From contig NZ_JARXWB010000002.1 in the NCBI RefSeq assembly GCF_029892425.1, positions 186,001 through 250,000 on the forward strand: DNA of 64,000 nucleotides, given 5' to 3'. The notes beneath the pieces were generated by a model. That model searched no databases. It was not told the origin of the DNA and saw only the letters and a program-made list of their open reading frames with translations. This DNA comes from Bradyrhizobium sp. BR13661. Lineage in GTDB: Bacteria; Pseudomonadota; Alphaproteobacteria; Rhizobiales; Xanthobacteraceae. Shown here piece by piece: positions 9,351 to 61,905 of the stretch (its first letter is position 1; every line of letters begins with the position of its first letter). The position numbers and the translations under genes are program-made.

Positions 9351-9379
9351 AGTTTGTGAGTTGTCGCTACAACATCAGT

Positions 9380-9503
9380 GTCGTCCCGGCGAAGGCCGGG
9401 ACCCATAACCCCGAGGCGTAGTTGTTTGCGCGAGAAGGGTAACTCCGAGTCCCTGTAACCACATCTGCTGGTGGTTATGGGTCCCGGCCTACGCCGGGAC
9501 GAC
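9380..9503. repeat. Palindromic intergenic repeat, class 1 (GTCGTCCCGGC ends)
   Basis: The 31-base terminal arms (9380-9410 and 9473-9503) are inverted repeats with one mismatch, surrounding a variable core. The same arms recur at 12673-12799 and 47571-47691. It lies between the convergent ends of phoB and gcrA and could form a bidirectional terminator. No coding potential is seen. Confidence 0.85.
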
Positions 9504-9568
9504 AGCGGAGTATGTCGGGCCGTCATCGCGTGACGGCTTCACATTGGTCGAAGACTAAATCCGCAAAC

Positions 9569-12660: not shown

Positions 12661-12672
12661 AGCTCGGAGTTT

Positions 12673-12799
12673 GGTGTCGTCCTGGCGAAGGCCAGGACCC
12701 ATTACCACCGAGCTTTATTTGGCGAAGATCGGCAATTGCCATCTCGCGCAGCGACTTCGCCCTGTGGTTATGGGTCCTGGCCTTCGCCAGGACGACACC
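12673..12799. repeat. Palindromic intergenic repeat, class 1
   Basis: Perfect 30-base inverted arms at 12673-12702 and 12770-12799 (GGTGTCGTCCTGGC ends) enclose a variable centre. It belongs to the same class as 9380-9503, with T/A substitutions matched on both arms, which indicates that pairing is conserved. It lies between argF and hslO. Confidence 0.85.
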
Positions 12800-12897
12800 G
12801 AATTTGCGGTATCGTATGTGATCAAAGCAGCGTTCGGTCACGTTGATCCGCGCCGCGCCCCCTTCCATTTTTCACCCCCGACCCCAGATAAAGCGCC

Positions 12898-14560: not shown

Positions 14561-14640
14561 GAGATAAGCCGCGAGGGCGAGAAGGTGTGTCTGCGATTTG
14601 AAATGTTGGTCTTAAGAGTGACGTCGTCACCAAGAACTCC

Positions 14641-14718
14641 GTCATTGCGAGCGCAGCGAAGCAATCCAGAATCTCTCCGCGGATGCAGACTGGATTGCTT
14701 CGCTGCGCTCGCAATGAC
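14641..14718. repeat. Perfect 28-base inverted repeat (class 2 palindrome)
   Basis: Arms 14641-14668 and 14691-14718 are identical inverted copies (outer ends GTCATTGCGAGC) around a 22-base centre. It is a MITE-like or REP-like unit without coding capacity, placed between the structured repeat and the end of apaG. As RNA it would form a very stable hairpin. Confidence 0.85.
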
Positions 14719-14770
14719 GATGTGGAGAGGAGGTGCCACATCCTACGGCACCTACGCTCGGGGCATCCCC

Positions 14771-29186: not shown

Positions 29187-29698
29187 TGTCGCTGATCGTG
29201 CGGGACGCAACGCTCGAGGATGCCGGGGACATCCTCGCCATCTACAATTTCGCCGCGATCAACACCACGGCGGTCTGGACCGACGGGCCGGCCGATCTGG
29301 ACTCGCGGCGTGAATGGGTCCGCGCACGGCAGCAAGCGGGTTATCCCGTGCTGGTCGCGATGAAGGCCCGGGACGTCGTCGGCTTCGCCTCGTTCGGCGA
29401 TTTCCGTCCCTTCCCCGGCTATCGCCACACCGTGGAGAATTCCGTCTATGTCGACGAGCGGCATCATCGCGCAGGCATCGGCCGCAGCCTGCTGGCTACG
29501 CTGATCGAACGAGCCGCGGCGCTCAACAAGCACGCCATGATCGCCGGGATCGAGGCCCTCAATGCCGGCTCGATCGGCCTGCACGCCTCGCTCGGCTTTG
29601 TCGAGGTCGCCCGCATGCCGGAGGTCGGCTGCAAGTTCGGCCGCTGGCTCGATCTTGTCTTCATGCAGAAGACGCTTGCAAGCCAAGTGAAACCTTGA
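29183..29698 (+). CDS. GNAT N-acetyltransferase, phosphinothricin-acetyltransferase-like
   Basis: The 171-residue GNAT-fold enzyme resembles the Pat/YwnH group (amino-acid analogue acetylation): VRDATLEDAGDILAIYNFAAINTTAVWT, then FASFGDFRPFPGYRHTVENSVYVDERHHRAGIGRSLLATLIERA, where HHRAGIG is the acetyl-CoA loop. EALNAGSIGLHASLGFVEVARMPEVGCKFGRWLDLVFMQK completes the fold. It overlaps the XRE-cupin gene by 4 bases. Its stop codon lies inside the first unit of a 13-base tandem repeat. Confidence 0.85.
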   Translation: MMSLIVRDATLEDAGDILAIYNFAAINTTAVWTDGPADLDSRREWVRARQQAGYPVLVAMKARDVVGFASFGDFRPFPGYRHTVENSVYVDERHHRAGIGRSLLATLIERAAALNKHAMIAGIEALNAGSIGLHASLGFVEVARMPEVGCKFGRWLDLVFMQKTLASQVKP

Positions 29699-29755
29699 CG
29701 CGAAACCTTGACGTGAAACCTTGACGTGAAACCTTGACGTGAAACCTTGACGTGA
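29687..29755. repeat. Five tandem copies of a 13-base unit (GTGAAACCTTGAC)
   Basis: Units start at 29687, 29700, 29713, 29726 and 29739; a partial GTGA starts at 29752. Only the second unit differs (GCG for GTG). Copy 1 holds the stop codon of the upstream acetyltransferase gene, and the array ends 5 bases before the ATG of the next. Near-identity of the units points to recent slippage expansion. Each unit carries TTGAC. Confidence 0.95.
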
Positions 29756-29759
29756 GGCC

Positions 29760-30230
29760 ATGACGATGCAGATCCGCACCGGCGACACCTTCGATCCGCG
29801 CGTCGTCGCGCTGCTCGACCACCACGTCACGGCGGCGCGGGCGCAGACCGCTCCGGGCAGCGCGCATGCGCTCGATCTCGCAGGCCTTCGCGCTAGCGAC
29901 GTCGCGTTCTGGACCGGCTGGGACGGCGAGACGCTGGTTGCGACCGGCGCGCTGAAGATGCTTTCCGCCGGGCTCGGCGAGGTGAAGTCGATGCACACGC
30001 TGCAGACGACACGCCGGCGCGGCTTTGGTGGCCTGATGCTCCGCCACATCATCGCAGAGGCGCGCAAGCGTGACATGACGCGGCTCAGCCTCGAGACCGG
30101 CTCCTGGGATTATTTCAAGCCGGCGCACGCGCTCTACCGGGCCCACGGCTTCGTGCCCTGCGCCCCGTTCGAGGGCTATGTCGAGGACCCCAACAGCCTT
30201 TTCCTGACGCTCGATCTGACAGGCGGTTAG
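29760..30230 (+). CDS. GNAT N-acetyltransferase
   Basis: The 156-residue GNAT-fold protein shows VKSMHTLQTTRRRGFGGLMLRHIIAEARKRDMTRLSLETGS, containing the acetyl-CoA binding RRRGFGG loop, and YFKPAHALYRAHGFVPCAPFEGYVEDPNSLFLTLDL at the end. It is of the PanM/YafP-like small acetyltransferase type; the substrate is unknown. A GAGG sits at 29754-29757, better spaced for the second ATG (29766) than for the first (29760), so the true product may be two residues shorter. The tandem repeat array forms its leader. Confidence 0.82.
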   Translation: MTMQIRTGDTFDPRVVALLDHHVTAARAQTAPGSAHALDLAGLRASDVAFWTGWDGETLVATGALKMLSAGLGEVKSMHTLQTTRRRGFGGLMLRHIIAEARKRDMTRLSLETGSWDYFKPAHALYRAHGFVPCAPFEGYVEDPNSLFLTLDLTGG

Positions 30231-45907: not shown

Positions 45908-47551
45908 ATGTCCGTTATCGATCCGAACATGAGCCCGAGCGATCTTCGTGCGCTCGCCGAACAATCCAACGCCTGGCCGTTCGAGCAGGCGAAGGCCATT
46001 GTCGCGCGGCTGAAGAAAAGCCCGAAGGACGAGGTGCTGTTCGAGACCGGTTACGGACCGTCCGGCCTGCCGCATATCGGCACGTTCGGCGAAGTCGCGC
46101 GCACCTCGATGGTGCGGCATGCCTTCCGCGTGCTGACCGAAGACAAGATCAAGACGCGCCTGCTCGCCTTCTCGGACGACATGGACGGATTCCGCAAGGT
46201 GCCTGACAACGTGCCGAACAAGGATCTGCTGGCGCAATATCTCGGCCGCCCGCTCACCGCGGTGCCCGACCCGTTCTCGAACGAGCATCCGTCGTTCGGT
46301 GACGCCAACAACGCGCGCCTGCGCGCGTTCCTGGATCATTTCGGCTTTGATTACGAGTTCGCGAGCTCGACCGTCTATTACAAGTCCGGCCGCTTCGACG
46401 CGACGCTGCTCAAGATGCTCGCCGCCTACGACAAGGTGATGGACATCATCCTGCCGACGTTAGGCCCCGATCGCCGCGCGACCTATTCGCCGTTCCTGCC
46501 CATCAGCAAGACCACCGGTGTCGTGCTGCAGGTGCCGATGATTCGCCGCGACGTCGCCGCCGGCACGGTGACCTATGTCGATCCTGACACCAACGAGGAA
46601 GTCGAAACGCCTGTCACCGGCGGCAACGTCAAGTGTCAGTGGAAGGCAGACTGGGCGATGCGCTGGGTTGCGCTCGGCGTCGACTACGAGATGGCCGGCA
46701 AGGATCTCATCGACTCGGTCAAGCTGTCGGGCGCGATCGCCAGGGCGCTCGGCGCCACGCCGCCCGAAGGTTTCAACTACGAGCTCTTCCTCGACGAGAA
46801 GGGCCAGAAGATCTCGAAGTCGAAGGGCAACGGCCTCACCATCGACGAATGGCTGCGCTACGCCTCGCCGGAATCGCTGTCGCTGTTCATGTATCGCGAG
46901 CCGAAGGCGGCGAAGCGGTTGTTCTTCGACGTCATCCCGCGCCAGGTCGACGACTATCAGCAGTTCATCGACGGCTTTCCCAGGCAGGATGACAAGCAGC
47001 AGCTTGGCAATCCGGTCTGGCACATTCATCACGGCCATCCGCCGCAGGGCGATATGCCCGTGACGTTCCAGCTGCTGCTGACGCTGGTGTCGTCGTCGAA
47101 TGCGGAGAACGCCGAGACGCTGTGGGGCTTCATCGGCCGCTATCGTCCCGGCGTCAGCCCGCAGACGCATCCGAAGCTGGATGCAATGGTCGGCTACGCC
47201 ATCAACTACTACCGCGACTTCGTCGCGCCGACGAAGCAGTTCCGCGTGCCCAATGACACCGAGCGCGCGGCCTTGCAGGACCTGCGCGAGGCGTTGTCAC
47301 AGTTGCCGGCGGATGCGTCAGCCGAGGACATCCAGAACGTCGTGTACGAGATCGGCCGCCGCGAGCCGTTCCTCGACCCGGTCAAGAAGGGCAAGGACGG
47401 CCGCCCGGGCGTCACGCTCGACTGGTTCAACATGCTCTACCAGGTGCTGCTCGGCCAGGAGAAGGGCCCGCGCTTCGGCTCCTTCGTCGCGGTGTACGGC
47501 GTGCAGAACGCCGTCAACATGATCGACGGCGCGCTGGCAAGGAGTGCGTGA
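45908..47551 (+). CDS. lysK: Lysyl-tRNA synthetase, class I
   Basis: Charges tRNA-Lys; this is the class I form used by Archaea and many Alphaproteobacteria instead of the common class II enzyme. The 547-residue product has the HIGH-type motif ([18 protein letters not shown]), the KMSKS-type motif (KISKSKGNG), and [12 protein letters not shown] plus [27 protein letters not shown] 45908 is chosen because the 37 codons upstream come from a palindromic repeat. It appears monocistronic. Confidence 0.95.
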
Positions 47552-47570
47552 GGTCCCAACTCTCTCCAAT

Positions 47571-47691
47571 GTCGTCCCGGAGAAGGCCGGGACCCATAAC
47601 CACCGAATTGGCTTTGGCGAAGGCTGGTCGTGACCACTTGGGACTACCACTTCTGCTGCGGCGTATGGGTCCCGGCCTTCGCCGGGACGAC
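47571..47691. repeat. Palindromic intergenic repeat, class 1
   Basis: Arms at 47571-47598 and 47664-47691 (GTCGTCCCGG ends) are inverted copies, nearly identical to the arms at 9380-9503. It lies between the convergent lysK and carbonic anhydrase genes. Confidence 0.85.
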
Positions 47692-47712
47692 AGTCTTTTG
47701 CAGATCTCAGGC

Positions 47713-52775: not shown

Positions 52776-54677
52776 TCAATGGCCGTCGGCGGACGCTGCA
52801 ACCTTAATTGTTAGTAGGGATTCGTCCGCCTTCAGCATCTTTTCCAGCGTTTCCAGCCGATCGGCCTCCCGTGGCGGCTTGTCCCACCGCAGGCGGCTGA
52901 TACGGGGAAAGCGCATGGCGACGCCGGATTTGTGCCGCGGTGAGCGCTGCAGCCCTTCGAAGGCGACCTCCAGCACCAGCCCCTTGTCCGCTTCGTGCAC
53001 GACATGACGCACCGGGCCGAACTTCTCCGTGGTGTTGCGGCGGACGAAGCGGTCGATCTGGAGCAGCTCCTCGTCGGTGAAGCCGAAATAGGCTTTGCCG
53101 ACCGGCACCAGCTCCTCACCGTTCTCGGTCTCGGTCCAGACGCCAAAGGTGTAGTCGGAATAATAGGACGAGCGCTTGCCGTGGCCGCGCTGCGCATACA
53201 TCAGCACGGCATCGATGATGTGCGGGTCGCGTTTCCACTTCCACCATTGGCCCTTCGGCCGTCCCGGCAGGTAAGGTGCATCGCGCCGCTTCAGCATCAC
53301 GCCTTCGACGGCGTCGGCATCCTCGCCCGCGCCGGCGCTCGCGGGATCGGCGCGCGCGGCGGTGAGGGCGTCCCAATTCGCGAAGGGAACGGTGGGCGAG
53401 AGATCAATGCGGGGATCGCTAAGCTTTGCGATGAAGGTCTCCAGCCGCGCGCGCCGTTCCGAGAACGGCAACTCGCGCAGATCGTTCGCGTCGTCGCCGA
53501 GCAGATCATAGGCGCGCAGGTGGATCGGAAATTCCTTGATCAGCTTCGGCGAGACGATTTTGCGGTTGAGCCGCTGCTGCAGGACGTTGAAACTCTGCAC
53601 GCGGCCCTCGCGCAGGATCAGCAGTTCGCCGTCGATCGCACCGGGCAGGCGCAGCGACGGCACCAGATCGGGAAAGCTCCGCGTGATGTCCTCGCCCGTG
53701 CGTGAATAGAGCCGCGCGGTGATCTGCCCATGATCATCGCGCCCGGCAACCGCCTGCACGCGGATGCCGTCCCATTTCCATTCGGCGATGTAGTCGGCGG
53801 GATCGAGGCTTGCGAAATCGCTGTCTTCGATCGCATGCGCCAGCATCACCGGGCGGAACGACGCGGGATCGCGATTGACAGGCTTTTCGGCGTGACCTTC
53901 CAGCCACGCGAACAGGTCGAGATAGGGCGGGCTGAGGCCCGGCCAGATCAGCTCGACCTCATGCGGGTCCTTGTCGCCGAGCGCGGCGGCTGCGGTCTTG
54001 GCGAGGCGCGCCGAGATGCCGATGCGCATGGCACCGGTGACGAGTTTCAGCAGCGCCCAGCGGCCGGTCTCGTCGAGCTCGTCGAGCCAGCGTTCGAGCT
54101 GCCTCGGCAGCTCGGACTTGCCGAGCGTGCGCAGCGTGGTGACGACTTCGGTGAGGGTCGGCGGAGGTGGGTTGTTGTGGTTGCTTGGCTGGAGCGCGTC
54201 ACTGGCGTCTCGCCCGCGGTACCCCTCTCCCTGACCCTCCCCCGCAAGGGGGGAGGGAACGGTGAGAGTTGTGCGTCCATCACTCGCTGAATCACTATCA
54301 GTCGCCGAACTCGCCTGTCGCTCCGCACGCAACTGCGCTCCCTCCCCCCTTGCGGGGGAGGGTGGGGGAGAGGGGTGGCCCGGAAAAGATTGCAAATTGG
54401 TTTGCGCCTTCGGCCACATCAGCGCCACCGTCTCCGAGAGATCGCCAACATAATCGTAGCTCAACCCGAACAGCACCTCATCGGTGCGCGAGGCAATGAG
54501 ATCGCGGATCAGCGCGGGCTTGGCGTGCTTGAAGCTGAGCGCGCCGGTGAGTGCGGCCAGCGCGTAGCCGCGATCGGGATCGCCGACGTCGCGAAAGTAG
54601 CCGGTGAGCAGCCGCAGCTTGTTGTTGCGGCCGGGCTCGTAGGCGAGGCGGTCCAGGAGTTCGGCGAAGCGGTTCAT
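52776..54677 (-). CDS. ATP-dependent DNA ligase of the ligase-associated repair set, with in-frame repeat insertion
   Basis: Seals DNA nicks using ATP. The 633-residue product has an N-terminal DNA-binding domain, the adenylation domain with nucleotide-acceptor Lys301 in AEWKWDGIRVQ, IDGELLIL, EGVMLKRRDAPYLPGRPKGQWWKWKRDP, and an OB-fold domain ending in SGVAMRFPRISRLRWDKPPREAD. Residues about 99-154 (Ser/Pro/Gly-rich, PSPPPSPARGEG) are encoded by a palindromic repeat inserted in frame. ATG 54677 overlaps the exonuclease stop by 4 bases. Ligase plus exonuclease, helicase and PdeM form a known DNA-damage set. Confidence 0.92.
   Translation of the reverse strand: MNRFAELLDRLAYEPGRNNKLRLLTGYFRDVGDPDRGYALAALTGALSFKHAKPALIRDLIASRTDEVLFGLSYDYVGDLSETVALMWPKAQTNLQSFPGHPSPPPSPARGEGAQLRAERQASSATDSDSASDGRTTLTVPSPLAGEGQGEGYRGRDASDALQPSNHNNPPPPTLTEVVTTLRTLGKSELPRQLERWLDELDETGRWALLKLVTGAMRIGISARLAKTAAAALGDKDPHEVELIWPGLSPPYLDLFAWLEGHAEKPVNRDPASFRPVMLAHAIEDSDFASLDPADYIAEWKWDGIRVQAVAGRDDHGQITARLYSRTGEDITRSFPDLVPSLRLPGAIDGELLILREGRVQSFNVLQQRLNRKIVSPKLIKEFPIHLRAYDLLGDDANDLRELPFSERRARLETFIAKLSDPRIDLSPTVPFANWDALTAARADPASAGAGEDADAVEGVMLKRRDAPYLPGRPKGQWWKWKRDPHIIDAVLMYAQRGHGKRSSYYSDYTFGVWTETENGEELVPVGKAYFGFTDEELLQIDRFVRRNTTEKFGPVRHVVHEADKGLVLEVAFEGLQRSPRHKSGVAMRFPRISRLRWDKPPREADRLETLEKMLKADESLLTIKVAASADGH
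54220..54379. repeat. Class 3 palindromic repeat inside the DNA ligase coding sequence
   Basis: Inverted arms (CCCTCTCCCTGACCCTCCCC side and GGGAGGGTGGGGGAGAGGG side) enclose about 100 bases. The same class of unit is intergenic at 61766-61905. On the minus strand the reading frame stays open throughout, adding about 55 residues to the ligase. Confidence 0.85.
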
Positions 54678-55720
54678 GCCTCGGCCTCGCCGGGAGCCGC
54701 CGGCTCGCTTTCTTCCTCCTCGCCATAGCCGACGAGATCGAGCGGCCGTGCCCGCAGACGTCGCGTCTTGCACCAATGCACCAGCGCGTCTTCCTGGCCG
54801 TGGGTGACCCAGATCTCGCCGGCGCCGGTCGCCGCGATCGTCGCGGTGAGGCCGTCCCAATCGGCGTGGTCGGAGATCACCAGCGGCAGTTCGATGCCGC
54901 CCTGCCGCGCGCGGGCGCGCACGCGCATCCAGCCCGAGGCGAAGGCGGTGACGGGATCGGGAAAGCGCCGGGCCCAGATATCCGACGTCGCGGACGGCGG
55001 TGCCAGCGTGATGGTGCCGGCGAGCTGAGCCTTCTTCATGCCGGCCACAGGCCTAAGCTCGCCGAGGTCGATGCCGCGGCTCTGGTAGTAATAGGTGATC
55101 TTTTCCATCGCGCCATGCAGGTAGATCGGCGCGTCATAGCCGGCCTGCCGCAGCAGCGCGATCACGCGCTGGGCCTTGCCGAGCGAATAGGCGCCGACGA
55201 GATGGGCGCGTTCCGGAAACAGCGCGACCGAGGCCAGCAGCTTCTTCACCTCGCCCGCTGCATCGCCATGGCGAAACACCGGCAGGCCGAACGTGGCCTC
55301 GGTGATGAAGACGTCGCAGGGCACCAGCTCGAACGGGACGCAGGTCGGGTCGGGCGCATCCTTGTAGTCGCCGGAGGCGACGATGCAAGTGTCCCCACAC
55401 GTCACGGCGATCTGCGCCGAGCCCAGCACGTGGCCGGCCGGGTGGAATTTGGCGGTGACATCGCCGAGCCTGATCTCCTCGCCATAGCTGATCACTTGCG
55501 TCGCGCCGGCAAAGTTCTCGCCATAGCGCAACCGCATCATGTCGAGCGTTTCCTGCGTCGCCAGCACGGCGCCATGGCCGGCGCGGGCATGATCGGAATG
55601 GCCGTGGGTGATCAGGGCCCGCTCCACGGGCCGGACGGGATCGATGTGGAAGCCGCCCGGCTTGCAGCACAGGCCGTCAGCAGTTGGCAGCAGGATGTCT
55701 TGCGGGCGCATGGTCGTCAT
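54674..55720 (-). CDS. Ligase-associated DNA exonuclease (metallo-beta-lactamase fold)
   Basis: The 348-residue product is an MBL/beta-CASP-type nuclease of the COG1236 group. It has the metal motif LITHGHSDHARAGHGAVLA, then VTAKFHPAGHVLGSAQIAV, CIVASGDYKDAPDPTCVPFE, ISDHADWDGLTATI and WVTHGQEDALVHWC. This subgroup is regularly linked to the ligase and the DEXH helicase. Its stop overlaps the ligase ATG, so exonuclease and ligase are made together. The start could also be ATG 55711. Confidence 0.9.
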   Translation of the reverse strand: MTTMRPQDILLPTADGLCCKPGGFHIDPVRPVERALITHGHSDHARAGHGAVLATQETLDMMRLRYGENFAGATQVISYGEEIRLGDVTAKFHPAGHVLGSAQIAVTCGDTCIVASGDYKDAPDPTCVPFELVPCDVFITEATFGLPVFRHGDAAGEVKKLLASVALFPERAHLVGAYSLGKAQRVIALLRQAGYDAPIYLHGAMEKITYYYQSRGIDLGELRPVAGMKKAQLAGTITLAPPSATSDIWARRFPDPVTAFASGWMRVRARARQGGIELPLVISDHADWDGLTATIAATGAGEIWVTHGQEDALVHWCKTRRLRARPLDLVGYGEEEESEPAAPGEAEA

Positions 55721-58147: not shown

Positions 58148-58300
58148 CCCTCTCCCCGCCTGCGGGGAGAGGGTAGGGTGAGGGGGAGCCTCCGCGGGGA
58201 CGGAAGCAGATGGACTCGCGGAGACTCCCCCCTCACCCGGAATTCGCGCTTGCGCGCAAATTCCGACCTCTCCCCGCACGCGGGGCGAGGTGAGAACCCA
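58148..58300. repeat. Class 3 palindromic repeat before the helicase gene
   Basis: Contains CCTCTCCCCGC/GCGGGGAGAGG at the left, inner GACTCGC/GCGCGC pieces, and ACCTCTCCCCGCACGCGGGG at the right. Its right end overlaps the first possible GTG (58290) of the helicase frame, so a start further downstream is preferred. Confidence 0.7.
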
Positions 58301-58340
58301 CCCCTCGACGAACCCGCCCCCACGGCTTACCTGTGATGCC

Positions 58341-60908
58341 GTGCCGCCCCGCATCCTCAAAATCCCGGCTGATCCGGCCGCGCTGCTGTTGCCCGACCGC
58401 TTCCAGCAATGGTTCGCGGGGCGCGGCTGGTCGCCGCGCGAGCATCAGCTGGCGCTTCTGGAGAAGGCGCGTGAGGACCGATCGGCGCTGCTGATCGCGC
58501 CGACCGGTGCCGGCAAGACGCTGGCGGGATTTTTGCCGACGCTGGTCGAGCTGAGCTCTGCGAGCGTTGGTTCTGCGAAATCCGTGGTCTCCACGGGCCG
58601 CTCCGTTCAGCGCAGCGCCGGTCTGCACACGCTCTACATCTCGCCGCTGAAAGCGCTCGCCGTCGACATCGCGCGCAACCTCGAGCGCCCGATCGCCGAG
58701 ATGAACTTGCCGATCAAGGTCGAGACCCGCACCGGCGACACGCCGGTGTCGCGGCGCCAGCGGCAGCGACGCTATCCGCCTGATATTCTGCTGACGACAC
58801 CCGAACAGCTCGCGCTGCTGCTCTCCTCCGACGACGCGCCATTCCTGTTCTCCTCGCTCAAGCGCATCGTGCTCGACGAGTTGCACGCGCTCGTCACGTC
58901 GAAGCGCGGCGATCTGCTCTCGCTGGGCCTTGCGCGACTCTGGCGGCTGACGCCGCAGATACGTGCCATCGGCCTATCGGCAACCGTCGCCGAGCCGGAC
59001 CAGCTCGCGCGCTTCCTGGTGCCGCAACCCGGCGGCAACGAAGCTGCGGCCGACATCGTCGTCGCCGGCGGCGCCGCGCCGCCGCAGGTGGAGATGCTGG
59101 ATACGCGCGAGCGGCTGCCCTGGGCCGGCCATGGCGCGCGTCACGCGCTCGCCGAAGTCTACGAGCTGATCAAGCAGAACAAGACGACGCTGGTCTTCGT
59201 CAACACCCGCAGCCAGGCCGAGATGCTGTTCCAGGATCTCTGGCGCATGAACGATGACGGCCTTGCCATCGCGCTGCATCACGGCTCGCTCGATGTCGCC
59301 CAGCGCCGCAAGGTCGAGGAAGCCATGTCGGCGGGTCGTTTGCGCGGCGTTGTCTGCACCTCGTCGCTCGATCTCGGCATCGACTGGGGCGATGTCGATC
59401 TCGTCGTCAATATCGGCGCGCCCAAGGGCTCCTCGCGCCTGATGCAGCGCATCGGCCGCGCCAATCACCGCCTCGATGAAGCATCGCGCGCGGTGCTGGT
59501 GCCGGCGAACCGTTTCGAGGTGCTGGAGTGCCGCGCCGCGATCGATGCCATCGCCGAGAATGCGCAGGACACGCCGCCCTTGCGCACGGGCGGGCTCGAT
59601 GTGCTGGCCCAGCACGTGCTCGGCTGCGCCTGCGGCGAACCGTTCCTGAGCGATGATCTCTTCGAAGAGGTCCGTACGGCCGCGCCCTATGCCGGTCTCG
59701 CGCGCGACGATTTCGACGACGTCGTCGATTTCGTCGCCACCGGCGGCTACGCGCTGAAAACCTATGAGCGCTTCGCCCGCATCAAGCAGGACAAGCAGGG
59801 CCGCTGGCGCGTCGCCAATCCAAAAGTGCGGCAGAGCTATCGGCTCAATGTCGGCACCATCGTCGAGGAGCCGATGCTGAAGGTGCGGCTGGTGCGGGGA
59901 CGTTCCACCGGCAGCGGTTCGACCGGCGCCATCGCGCGCGGCGGCCGCGTGCTGGGGGAGATCGAGGAATATTTCATCGAAGGCCTCACGGCCGGCGACA
60001 CCTTCGTGTTCGGCGGCGAAGTCGTGCGCTACGAGGCGCTGGCCGAGGACCAGGTCTACGTCTCCCGCGCCAGCGACAAGGACCCGAAAGTGCCGTCCTA
60101 CATGGGCGGCAAGTTTCCGCTCTCCACCTATCTCGCCGAGCGCGTCCGCCGCATCCTCGATGATGCCAGCGCCTGGAATGGCCTGCCCGAGCAGGTGCGC
60201 GACTGGCTGTCGCTGCAAAAGGACGTCAGCAGAGTGCCCGGCGTCCGCGAGTTGCTGGTCGAGACCTTTCCCCGCGGCAACAAGCACTACCTCATCTGCT
60301 ATCCCTTCGAGGGCCGGCTCGCGCATCAGACGCTCGGCATGCTGTTGACGCGTCGTCTCGAGCGCGCCCGCGCGCGGCCGCTCGGTTTCGTCGCCAATGA
60401 ATATGCAGTGGCGATCTGGGGGCTCGGCGATGCCTCCTTCATGATCCGCCACGGCCAGCTTGATCTCGATGCGCTGTTCAACCCGGATATGCTGGGCGAC
60501 GATCTCGAAGCCTGGCTCGCTGAGTCCGCGCTGATGAAGCGCACGTTTCGTAATTGCGCGCTGATCTCAGGCCTGATCGCGCGCCGCTTCACCGACGAAG
60601 ACAAGAGCCGCCGTCAGGTGCTGTTCTCGACCGATCTCGTCTACGATGTCTTGCGAAAACACCAGGCCGACCACGTCCTTCTGCGCGCCGCGCGTGCCGA
60701 TGCCGCCACCGGCCTGCTCGATCTGCGCCGTCTCGGCGGCATGCTCGCCCGCATCCAGGGCCACATCACCCACCGGGAACTCGACCGCGTCTCCCCGCTC
60801 GCCGTCCCCGTGATGCTGGAAATCGGCCGCGAGTCAGTTTATGGCGAAGCTGCAGACGAGCTGTTGGCCGAAGCCGCCGACGAGCTGGTCAAGGAAGCGA
60901 TGTCGTAG
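58341..60908 (+). CDS. Ligase-associated DEXH-box DNA helicase (Lhr-like)
   Basis: A 855-residue superfamily 2 helicase of the Lhr-core type. It has Q-motif-like PREHQLALLEKA, Walker A IAPTGAGKT, LYISPLKALAVDIARNL, LTTPEQLALLL, DEXH box VLDELHAL, SAT motif IGLSATVAEPD, VFVNTRSQAEMLFQDL, and motif VI RIGRANHRLDEASRA. The C-terminal half has the winged-helix and Lhr-specific section (LGMLLTRRLERARARPLGFVANEYAVAIWG). GTG 58341 (VPPRILKIP) is chosen because the upstream frame lies in a repeat. It works with ligase, exonuclease and PdeM in DNA damage repair, by family association. Confidence 0.92.
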   Translation: MPPRILKIPADPAALLLPDRFQQWFAGRGWSPREHQLALLEKAREDRSALLIAPTGAGKTLAGFLPTLVELSSASVGSAKSVVSTGRSVQRSAGLHTLYISPLKALAVDIARNLERPIAEMNLPIKVETRTGDTPVSRRQRQRRYPPDILLTTPEQLALLLSSDDAPFLFSSLKRIVLDELHALVTSKRGDLLSLGLARLWRLTPQIRAIGLSATVAEPDQLARFLVPQPGGNEAAADIVVAGGAAPPQVEMLDTRERLPWAGHGARHALAEVYELIKQNKTTLVFVNTRSQAEMLFQDLWRMNDDGLAIALHHGSLDVAQRRKVEEAMSAGRLRGVVCTSSLDLGIDWGDVDLVVNIGAPKGSSRLMQRIGRANHRLDEASRAVLVPANRFEVLECRAAIDAIAENAQDTPPLRTGGLDVLAQHVLGCACGEPFLSDDLFEEVRTAAPYAGLARDDFDDVVDFVATGGYALKTYERFARIKQDKQGRWRVANPKVRQSYRLNVGTIVEEPMLKVRLVRGRSTGSGSTGAIARGGRVLGEIEEYFIEGLTAGDTFVFGGEVVRYEALAEDQVYVSRASDKDPKVPSYMGGKFPLSTYLAERVRRILDDASAWNGLPEQVRDWLSLQKDVSRVPGVRELLVETFPRGNKHYLICYPFEGRLAHQTLGMLLTRRLERARARPLGFVANEYAVAIWGLGDASFMIRHGQLDLDALFNPDMLGDDLEAWLAESALMKRTFRNCALISGLIARRFTDEDKSRRQVLFSTDLVYDVLRKHQADHVLLRAARADAATGLLDLRRLGGMLARIQGHITHRELDRVSPLAVPVMLEIGRESVYGEAADELLAEAADELVKEAMS

Positions 60909-60945
60909 AGAATTTTGCCAGTGAGGCGCGCAACCCTATCCATAT

Positions 60946-61027
60946 CGTCATGCCCGGGCTTGACCCGGGCATCCACGTCTTTGCTTCAGCAAGAGCGTGG
61001 ATGGCCGGGACAAGCCCGGCCATGACG
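60946..61027. repeat. Palindromic repeat, class 5, between helicase and PdeM genes
   Basis: Arms CGTCATGCCCGGGC and GCCCGGCCATGACG are inverted around a centre with CACGTCTTTGC. The right arm contributes an in-frame ATG (61022) to the pdeM frame, which may or may not be used. Confidence 0.8.
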
Positions 61028-61063
61028 GCGCAAGGGGCACTCTCCATTACTTCAACGCTGGCA

Positions 61064-61720
61064 ATGGACGTTGCCGGTGTTTCATTCCACGCCGATCTCT
61101 CCGGCGCCCTCTATTGGGAAGAGCAGCGCCTGCTCGTCGTCTCCGATCTGCATCTGGAAAAGGGGTCCAGCTTCGCCACGCGCGGCGTGCTGCTGCCGCC
61201 TTACGACACGCTGGCAACGCTCAGCCGCCTCGCTGCTGTCATCTCCCGCCATGATCCCAAAACCGTCATCGCGCTCGGCGACAGCTTTCACGATCGTTCC
61301 GCGCATGAGCGCCTGTCGGCGGACGACCGCGACGCCGTCGCAGCACTCCAGGCCGGCCGCGACTGGATCTGGATCTCAGGCAATCACGATCCGATGCTGC
61401 CGCGCGATCTCGGCGGCACCGTCGCCGACGAGGTCTCAATCGGCCCGATCACCTTCCGCCACGAGCCATCAGGCGCGCATGGCGAGATTGCGGGCCATCT
61501 GCATCCCAAGGCCCGTGTCTCCGCGCGCGGCCGTTCGATGGAGCGGCGTTGTTTCGCCAGCGACGGCCTACGCGCCGTGATGCCCGCCTTCGGCGCCTAT
61601 GCCGGCGGCCTCAGCATCCGCGATGCGGCGTTCGCGAAGATCTTTCCGAGCAATGGTTTTGTCGCACATCTGCTCGGCGACCGCCGCGTCCACGCGATCG
61701 CCGCGTCGCGCTGTTATTGA
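61064..61720 (+). CDS. pdeM: Ligase-associated DNA phosphoesterase/endonuclease PdeM
   Basis: A 218-residue calcineurin-like metallophosphoesterase with all metal motifs: VSDLHLEKGSSFA (DxH), IALGDSFHD (GDxxxD), ISGNHDP (GNHD), and IAGHLHPKA (GHLH). This subgroup always travels with the DNA ligase, exonuclease and Lhr-like helicase. It follows the helicase gene by 155 bases on the same strand, separated by a palindromic repeat. ATG 61064 is chosen; ATG 61022 inside the repeat is an alternative adding 14 residues. Confidence 0.9.
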   Translation: MDVAGVSFHADLSGALYWEEQRLLVVSDLHLEKGSSFATRGVLLPPYDTLATLSRLAAVISRHDPKTVIALGDSFHDRSAHERLSADDRDAVAALQAGRDWIWISGNHDPMLPRDLGGTVADEVSIGPITFRHEPSGAHGEIAGHLHPKARVSARGRSMERRCFASDGLRAVMPAFGAYAGGLSIRDAAFAKIFPSNGFVAHLLGDRRVHAIAASRCY

Positions 61721-61765: not shown

Positions 61766-61905
61766 CGCTCCCTCCCCCCTTGCGGGGGAGGGCGGGGGAG
61801 AGGGGTAGCCCAGCAAAAGGTTTATCTGTCTGCGTTCGCCCGAATGGAGAGAATCCCCGTGTGGACCCCTCTCCCTAACCCTCCCCCGCAAGGGGGGAGG
61901 GAACG
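61766..61905. repeat. Class 3 palindromic repeat after pdeM
   Basis: The inverted arms (CTCCCTCCCCCC/GGGGGGAGGGA and flanking GGGGGAGAGGGGTA/CCCCTCTCCCTAACC) have the same design as the unit inside the ligase gene. Read on the minus strand it also encodes PSPPPSPARGEGAQL, the same peptide seen in the ligase insertion. It sits between convergent pdeM and the LysR gene. Confidence 0.85.

Follow-up and report, generated by a model that had tools for sequence, protein, structure and literature searches.

A palindromic repeat dimer in frame within a Bradyrhizobium DNA ligase gene, and the association of its repeat family with DUF559 nuclease genes

REPs and BIMEs, including the GTAG and CGTC families, are short GC-rich hairpins that often form inverted dimers and sometimes lie in frame in repair genes. 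In Di Nocera et al. (2013; PMC3733652), both families are reported from Bradyrhizobium, REPs are described within genes, in many cases repair genes and including a DNA ligase of O. terrae, and the abstract describes CGTC repeats as apparently having no dedicated transposase. Other REPs of the genus, Br-REP1 and Br-REP2 of B. japonicum USDA 110, are described in PMC5082802. Proteins with in-frame palindromes are known from Rickettsia and from some free-living bacteria (PMC10969869, PMC3733652), and Rickettsia palindromic elements (RPEs) are reviewed along with MITEs in PMC10969869. The DUF559 protein VsrA of Caulobacter has been studied as a Vsr-like repair enzyme (PMC12907096); in the main text of that paper the strings 'palindrom' and 'transpos' are absent.

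The locus described here, in a DNA ligase gene of Bradyrhizobium sp. BR13661, resembles each of these systems in part. It shares with REPs and BIMEs the short GC-rich hairpins, the inverted dimers and the in-frame position in a repair gene, but its arms bracket DUF559 rather than RAYT genes, only part of them end in GTAG, and one ligase linker holds several arm families. As with RPEs, the palindrome lies in frame in a protein gene and is tolerated in the product; unlike RPEs, it has a single recognised in-gene site (one host gene, in a partial scan) and a nuclease-bearing relative, and the two are likened by design, not by sequence. The Rickettsia-like parallel, already drawn in the preliminary description of this DNA, is thus supported by PMC3733652 and PMC10969869. 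MITEs are comparable in that short non-coding copies share their ends with a longer gene-bearing element, whereas the short copies seen here, judged by eye, share arms and little interior with the DUF559 element. Br-REP1 and Br-REP2 are likewise dispersed palindromes of the genus, with consensus sequences that differ from the present one. VsrA carries the same Pfam domain (PF04480) as the DUF559 copies reported here, which differ in lying mostly between inverted palindromes, at one site polymorphic between species.

The window, that is, the whole stretch of 64,000 nucleotides analysed, corresponds to C2:186001-250000 in an 8.94-Mb genome of 91 contigs, and the genus Bradyrhizobium was inferred from the named relatives. 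The ligase gene and its functional neighbours are the following:

52776-54677, minus strand: cisplatin damage response ATP-dependent DNA ligase (TIGR04120), 633 amino acids, with the in-frame insert (NCBIfam, Pfam, Foldseek).
54674-55720, minus strand: ligase-associated DNA damage response exonuclease (TIGR04122), the ligase's partner gene upstream (NCBIfam).
58290-60908, plus strand: ligase-associated DEXH-box helicase (TIGR04121; NCBIfam).
60554-61720, plus strand: open reading frame containing the ligase-associated endonuclease PdeM (TIGR04123) as its residues 172-363 (NCBIfam).

The ligase belongs to TIGR04120, with 808 bits against a cutoff of 400 and a match to profile positions 2-526 of 526. 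Ligase domains were also matched by Pfam, and the top Foldseek matches of the predicted structure were archaeal ATP-dependent ligases. The exonuclease gene adjoins the ligase, and the helicase and PdeM genes lie a few kb away. Within the ligase, the insert is composed of these parts:

54180-54404, minus strand: extra linker, residues 92-166, where the short-linker orthologue L103 has 4 residues (orthologue comparison, predicted disorder).
54336-54376, minus strand: arm 1 in coding order, ACCCCTCTCCCCCACCCTCCCCCGCAAGGGGGGAGGGAGCG, containing the hairpin and matching dispersed genomic arms.
54262-54335, minus strand: spacer between the arms (genome BLAST).
54221-54261, minus strand: arm 2 in coding order, CGTTCCCTCCCCCCTTGCGGGGGAGGGTCAGGGAGAGGGGT, an inverted copy of arm 1 (repeat and pattern searches).

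The two arms are 41-nt inverted copies, 93% alike by BLAST, and the ligase frame on the minus strand stays open through both, which bears out the earlier claim of a palindromic repeat in frame within the gene. Each arm holds the exact 23-mer CCCTCCCCCGCAAGGGGGGAGGG and a hairpin, CCCTCCCCC-GCAA-GGGGGGAGGG, that is absent from shuffled sequence. The insert had previously been put at about 55 added residues (99-154); between the same anchors the linker is 71 residues longer than that of L103 (84 against 13), and the extra residues are 92-166. Upstream of the insert, the N-terminal domain is strongly conserved among the orthologues, with invariant residues from F4, A5 and L7-L11 to W88. A downstream translation start, which the preliminary description named as a refuting finding, is therefore unlikely.

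In this 8.9-Mb genome, the 23-mer has 55 matches with at most 3 mismatches and 29 with at most 1, against 0 for the reversed pattern, and it is thus a short hairpin in many dispersed copies, as REPs and BIMEs are. The window alone contains 4 exact copies and 5 with at most 3 mismatches (0.00 expected by shuffling). Other genomic matches found by BLAST comprise the arms and their near flanks, some extending into one end of the spacer; no other locus of this genome matches across the ligase spacer (54262-54335). The insert has no match in Rfam. Among 19 genomic arm loci, where the scan covered 20 of the listed open reading frames, the ligase is the only recognised conserved protein with an arm inside; 5 of the 20 arm-overlapping frames matched Pfam, none with an arm inside the matched domain.

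A second dimer of the same arm family lies in the window:

61766-61905, strand not assigned: intergenic dimer with tails inward, downstream of pdeM (arm comparison).

The two units do both encode PSPPPSPARGEG on the minus strand, as the preliminary description stated, but, contrary to what it held, they are not of the same design: the GAGGGGT arm ends point outward in the ligase copy and inward in the intergenic one. Inward is the orientation of most arm pairs listed for this genome, the outward one being found in the ligase pair and in L013. In related genomes, the site of the 61766-61905 dimer is cleanly empty in two (G025 and G072), filled in one (G215) and occupied by other sequence in three (G060, G206 and G031), in a comparison made without L353, which gave no useful alignment. 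Such presence/absence polymorphism of the repeat family at orthologous sites supports the suggestion that the repeat is mobile. In the alignments of filled and empty sites no target-site duplication was seen, and the boundaries there are blurred by intergenic divergence.

The ligase query was matched in 265 of 265 genomes of the genus, although a few weak matches (G097, G167) may represent another ligase. A set of 170 ligase loci (L031-L200) was compared, composed of the best 80 of 347 matches to the insert-bearing query, the best 30, and 60 picked in part for matches that started beyond the insert; query and choice both bias the sample, and its counts are not population frequencies. One open frame from the conserved start was found in 164 of the 170, both anchors in 162 (L071 and L101 were left out for missing anchors), and 137 of these ligases are distinct. 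The six unparsed loci are L175, which has no N-terminal half, L177 and L178, with a broken frame, L179 and L180, cut by contig ends, and L187, missed by the start motif. In L175, from G015, the part missing from the open frame is the N-terminal half that precedes the second arm of the insert.

By regular expressions, the 137 distinct ligases were sorted into linker class A (76), short (34), B (10), C (9), D (2), a C+A tandem (1) and others (5); class A takes in partial or mixed forms such as L058, L090, L097 and L107. Class A is the insert type of the BR13661 ligase (PSP-RGEG...PSPL-GEG), class B reads SPSPACGGG...TSPASGRG, class C is heterogeneous, mostly SSPLPPRSGGEGSGVGG...PPTPDPSPP, and class D is a Rhodopseudomonas form; most B, C and D linkers have hairpins of their own. 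The insert is accordingly not peculiar to this strain, many Bradyrhizobium ligases carrying it. The comparison of orthologues proposed in the preliminary description also shows that repeat-free orthologues lack the insert residues, and the insert is in this respect an in-frame palindrome of the RPE kind, absent from the 34 short-linker orthologues. Linkers L081 (C plus an A arm) and L097 (A plus a B arm) contain tandem pieces of two palindrome families, possibly snapshots of repeat replacement. In L033, L050 and L061 the loop is expanded in both arms, with a SAFAKASADK-like peptide in arm 1 and a different expansion in arm 2, a variant repeat unit.

An order-wide search returned a short linker in all of its 30 best loci (3 from the genus, 2 from other genera of the family and 25 from other families), with a query that itself had a short linker and favours such matches; the short form is probably ancestral, given this uniformity. 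Long linkers occur in a few other families, some with inverted repeats (L235, L236, L237). In a tree of the ligase core, the BR13661 ligase groups with those of B. zhengyangense, B. manausense and two further genomes, all short-linker (support 90, not starred); its identity to the B. zhengyangense and B. manausense ligases is 96% and 95%. The insert did not arise recently in strain BR13661 but is an allele long present in the genus.

Presence and absence of the insert are interleaved on this gene tree, which was built without the linker by a quick method and has many weak branches. At least 39 changes are needed for all linker classes and 20 for A and short alone, compared with 26.3 +/- 2.2 under shuffled labels (minimum 18, 1000 shuffles). 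The figure of about 20 switches is approximate because the ligase gene recombines strongly: the left and right 150 bp of the gene gave a Mantel rho of 0.16-0.20. At 24 amino-acid sites of comparable frequency, 7 to 24 changes were counted, which places the linker at the homoplasious end of their range and not outside it. Some pairs in opposite states differ by few of the 120 flanking bases (L168/L042 by 9, L150/L115 by 3, L164/L183 by 5).

The insert state showed no association with the nearest flanking windows (Fst about 0) and a weak one with some farther windows, such as those at -267 to -132 and +945 to +1080 (Fst 0.05-0.07). Among SNPs, 1 of 125 was less associated with its flanks than the insert state at 3-30 bp, and 11 of 125 at 30-75 bp. 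Linkage was considered as a demonstration of allelic exchange, and the flank association that it predicts is absent nearest the linker. The whole gene is near linkage equilibrium, so that the test neither proves nor excludes allele recombination. Switching is thus either allele exchange or gain and loss in place, and neither is preferred here.

The insert is under almost no amino-acid constraint, to judge from codon positions. Across 190 pairs of A-type inserts that were equally long and at least 80% identical, the shares of differences at the three positions were 0.33/0.27/0.41, and in the spacer 0.35/0.30/0.35, compared with 0.13/0.07/0.81 in the ligase core of the same pairs. A location in a linker between helices, proposed earlier, is supported by the structural model, in which residues 90-169 are predicted to be disordered (pLDDT below 50, about 30 in the insert), with helices 80-85 and 175-184 on either side. 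That model is of moderate quality, with a mean pLDDT of 69 and helix 80-85 itself below 50; a first model, on close orthologues, was discarded at pLDDT 35.6.

The Ser/Pro/Gly segment might instead have a selected role, for example as a flexible tether or a protein-protein contact in a repair complex. The frame is open in the same 164 of 170 loci, with or without the insert, other palindrome-bearing linkers recur at the site, and the long linkers of a few other families of the order point in the same direction. The codon-position bias is nevertheless almost nil in the insert, short-linker ligases are common among close relatives, and in L177 and L178 the frame is broken, apparently within the insert (sequencing error in the G/C runs is possible). 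Domestication is on this evidence very unlikely. The preliminary description had offered "domesticated or tolerated" as alternatives; toleration fits the codon comparison, domestication does not, and the insert would best be regarded as tolerated.

Another alternative is that selection acts on the nucleic acid, the arms being preserved because they pair, in the mRNA or as a cruciform in the DNA, and thereby regulate the ligase. The loop base is the same in both arms in 56 of the 61 rows, out of 76 of type A, in which both loops were readable (59 of 65 by a second parser), and 8 to 10 phylogenetically independent contrasts favour agreement against 0 for the opposite. Against this explanation, the varying base sits in the hairpin loop, the insert has no Rfam counterpart, and the 35 non-loop departures from the consensus are all confined to one arm, with 0 shared by both. 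The agreement is accounted for by inserts being inherited or exchanged whole, and we regard a maintained pairing structure as highly improbable, the least expected of the readings weighed here. Arm-to-arm gene conversion was rejected, like selection for pairing, on the same ground that non-loop changes are never mirrored. Loop agreement thus reflects the transmission of inserts as units rather than a continuing repair of either arm from its partner.

The link between the repeat family and DUF559 nuclease genes went unnoticed in the preliminary description. In this genome, inverted arms of the ligase family enclose a DUF559 gene at C1:44909-45229 (element C1:44845-45280), a second at C44:24468-24791 is flanked in the same way (element C44:24408-24860), and a third, on C17, lies between palindromes of a related family; a fourth copy of the domain is part of a long open reading frame without arms. 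The three arm-flanked copies match PF04480 with 132, 131.9 and 128.1 bits and have no internal stops. The short repeats therefore share terminal repeats with longer gene-bearing elements, C1 and C44, as MITEs do, the autonomy of these elements being putative. The ligase pair is turned inside-out compared with the arms of the nuclease elements.

To score the association, the 250 bp to the left of the domain were compared with the 250 bp to its right, and the best inverted repeat between them was taken, with a threshold of at least 18. This score was reached at 29 of 33 loci among the best matches in the genus, 16 of 20 among the lower matches, 16 of 27 among the best matches in other families of the order, and 25 of 28 loci from 20 genomes chosen for other ligase linkers, a set from which two cut loci were left out. 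Together, 82 of 101 full-length DUF559 loci and 28 of 35 genomic contexts have inverted arms; the 101 loci include duplicates of one record, which makes the 35 contexts the safer unit, although the largest context cluster (33 loci) was formed by single linkage and may be chained. The loci are mostly the highest-scoring matches of each search. Controls of the same geometry reached the threshold in 0 of 250 positions in ligase loci and 0 of 156 positions shifted by 850 bp in the same loci (highest score 14), and in 0 of 30 loci around HSP20, another small gene family. Hairpins were found on both sides in 23 of 25 parsed DUF559 loci (8 of 33 were unparsed), against 5.2% in the control. No strong inverted repeat was present at 19 of the 101 loci, nor at 11 of the 27 in other families of the order. 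The palindrome-DUF559 association is nonetheless strong.

Within the genus DUF559 was found in 116 of 117 genomes, and within the order in 92 of 199. Its arms stand at near-fixed distances within a family and differ in sequence between families. The codon positions of type A DUF559 genes, 0.18/0.09/0.73 in 14 pairs from 6 sequences, indicate purifying selection. By alignment, the intergenic site of the C1 element is empty in 10 relatives and filled in 3 others and in this genome, and BLAST spans suggest that it is filled in at least 6 more, some of them distant (G018, G042, G161, G174, G238, G257). With distant species also among the filled ones, change at this site may have gone in either direction, and the element may have been lost from the ten empty sites instead of newly gained elsewhere. 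In one locus (L001:1538-1993), the ATG of an arm-flanked DUF559 gene directly follows the GAGGGGT end of one arm, and the frame runs into the other arm, which would encode the C-terminus of the nuclease.

A simple correspondence between ligase linker type and resident DUF559 type mostly fails: linker arms match the sampled DUF559 arms of the same genome in 8 of 28 loci, so that the ligase insert is not generally tied to a resident nuclease. Among the heterogeneous class C linkers, L106 scores 41 against a DUF559 locus in the genome that carries it, and the L083/L085 form at most 19 among the matches listed.

An ordinary intragenic REP or BIME dimer, moved by RAYT or by an unknown transposase, with the DUF559 genes as captured passengers, must also be weighed. 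Intragenic REPs in repair genes are published, the O. terrae ligase among them (PMC3733652), and Y1_Tnp-family genes are present in this genome. By eye, GGGGTAG occurs in about 11 of 29 listed arms, giving these a GTAG end, the rest having GTGG, GTGC, GTAC or others. The Y1_Tnp (RAYT-family) loci of this one genome, however, carry no ligase-family arms and have inverted-repeat scores of at most 14; the RAYT association that characterises REPs and BIMEs is thus not seen here, and RAYT was set aside as the partner of the arms. The DUF559 tie also recurs across arm families and families of the order, beyond what passenger capture would lead one to expect. This account is on balance unlikely, and the arm-bearing elements are proposed to carry their own nuclease and to be distinct from RAYT-linked REPs. 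The DUF559 gene could itself be cargo, since DUF559 has a known part in repair in Caulobacter, as a Vsr-like nuclease.

The reading that we favour, and consider reasonably probable, is that an ancestral dimer resides in a disordered ligase linker as a neutral allele and belongs to a palindrome family linked to DUF559. A dispersed GC-rich palindrome dimer would have lodged in the ligase linker in an ancestor of Bradyrhizobium and since been carried as one linker allele, a neutral and presumably translated filler. It would have survived there because the loop is free of structure, its length being tolerated and its amino-acid identity unconstrained. Lineages would swap the insert, the short linker and other palindromes, presumably by allele recombination or by further insertion and deletion. 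Larger elements of these palindrome families enclose a gene for DUF559, a Vsr-like PD-(D/E)XK nuclease, between inverted arms, and this nuclease, rather than a RAYT transposase, may spread the arms: its nicks or cuts, made at hairpin arms or target sites, would be mended by the host with arm-flanked DNA copied into the break. The short dimers would be nuclease-less products of such elements.

A broader proposal is held more tentatively, and we think it somewhat doubtful as a whole: DUF559 nucleases would mobilise a large, unrecognised class of palindrome-ended elements in Hyphomicrobiales, each lineage with its own arms and scattering nuclease-less dimers, some in frame in genes, and the TIGR04120 linker would be a recurrent, interchangeable docking site across a bacterial family. 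No report of DUF559 between palindromes was found in the literature searched, a search that left most subscription papers outside. The ligase insert adds a well-documented case to a known kind, and the DUF559-palindrome tie is the part worth following up. More than 100 orthologues show one site filled, emptied and refilled by different repeats, and this natural variation in the ligase makes the cost and fate of protein-coding repeats measurable. If DUF559 drives the repeats, a common gene family gains a role in mobility, and palindromes that travel without RAYT gain a testable candidate engine.

Other repeats were observed in the window. Inverted dimers of TGTCGTCCCGGCGAAGGCCGGGACCCATAACC, with the look of CGTC-type REPs, lie at 9376-9505, 12670-12802 and 47549-47693. 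At 14640-14719, CGTCATTGCGAGCGCAGCGAAGCAATCCAG forms a perfect inverted repeat of 30 nt around a 20-nt loop, and a 13-bp tandem repeat, GTGAAACCTTGAC, is present in about 5 copies at 29687-29764.
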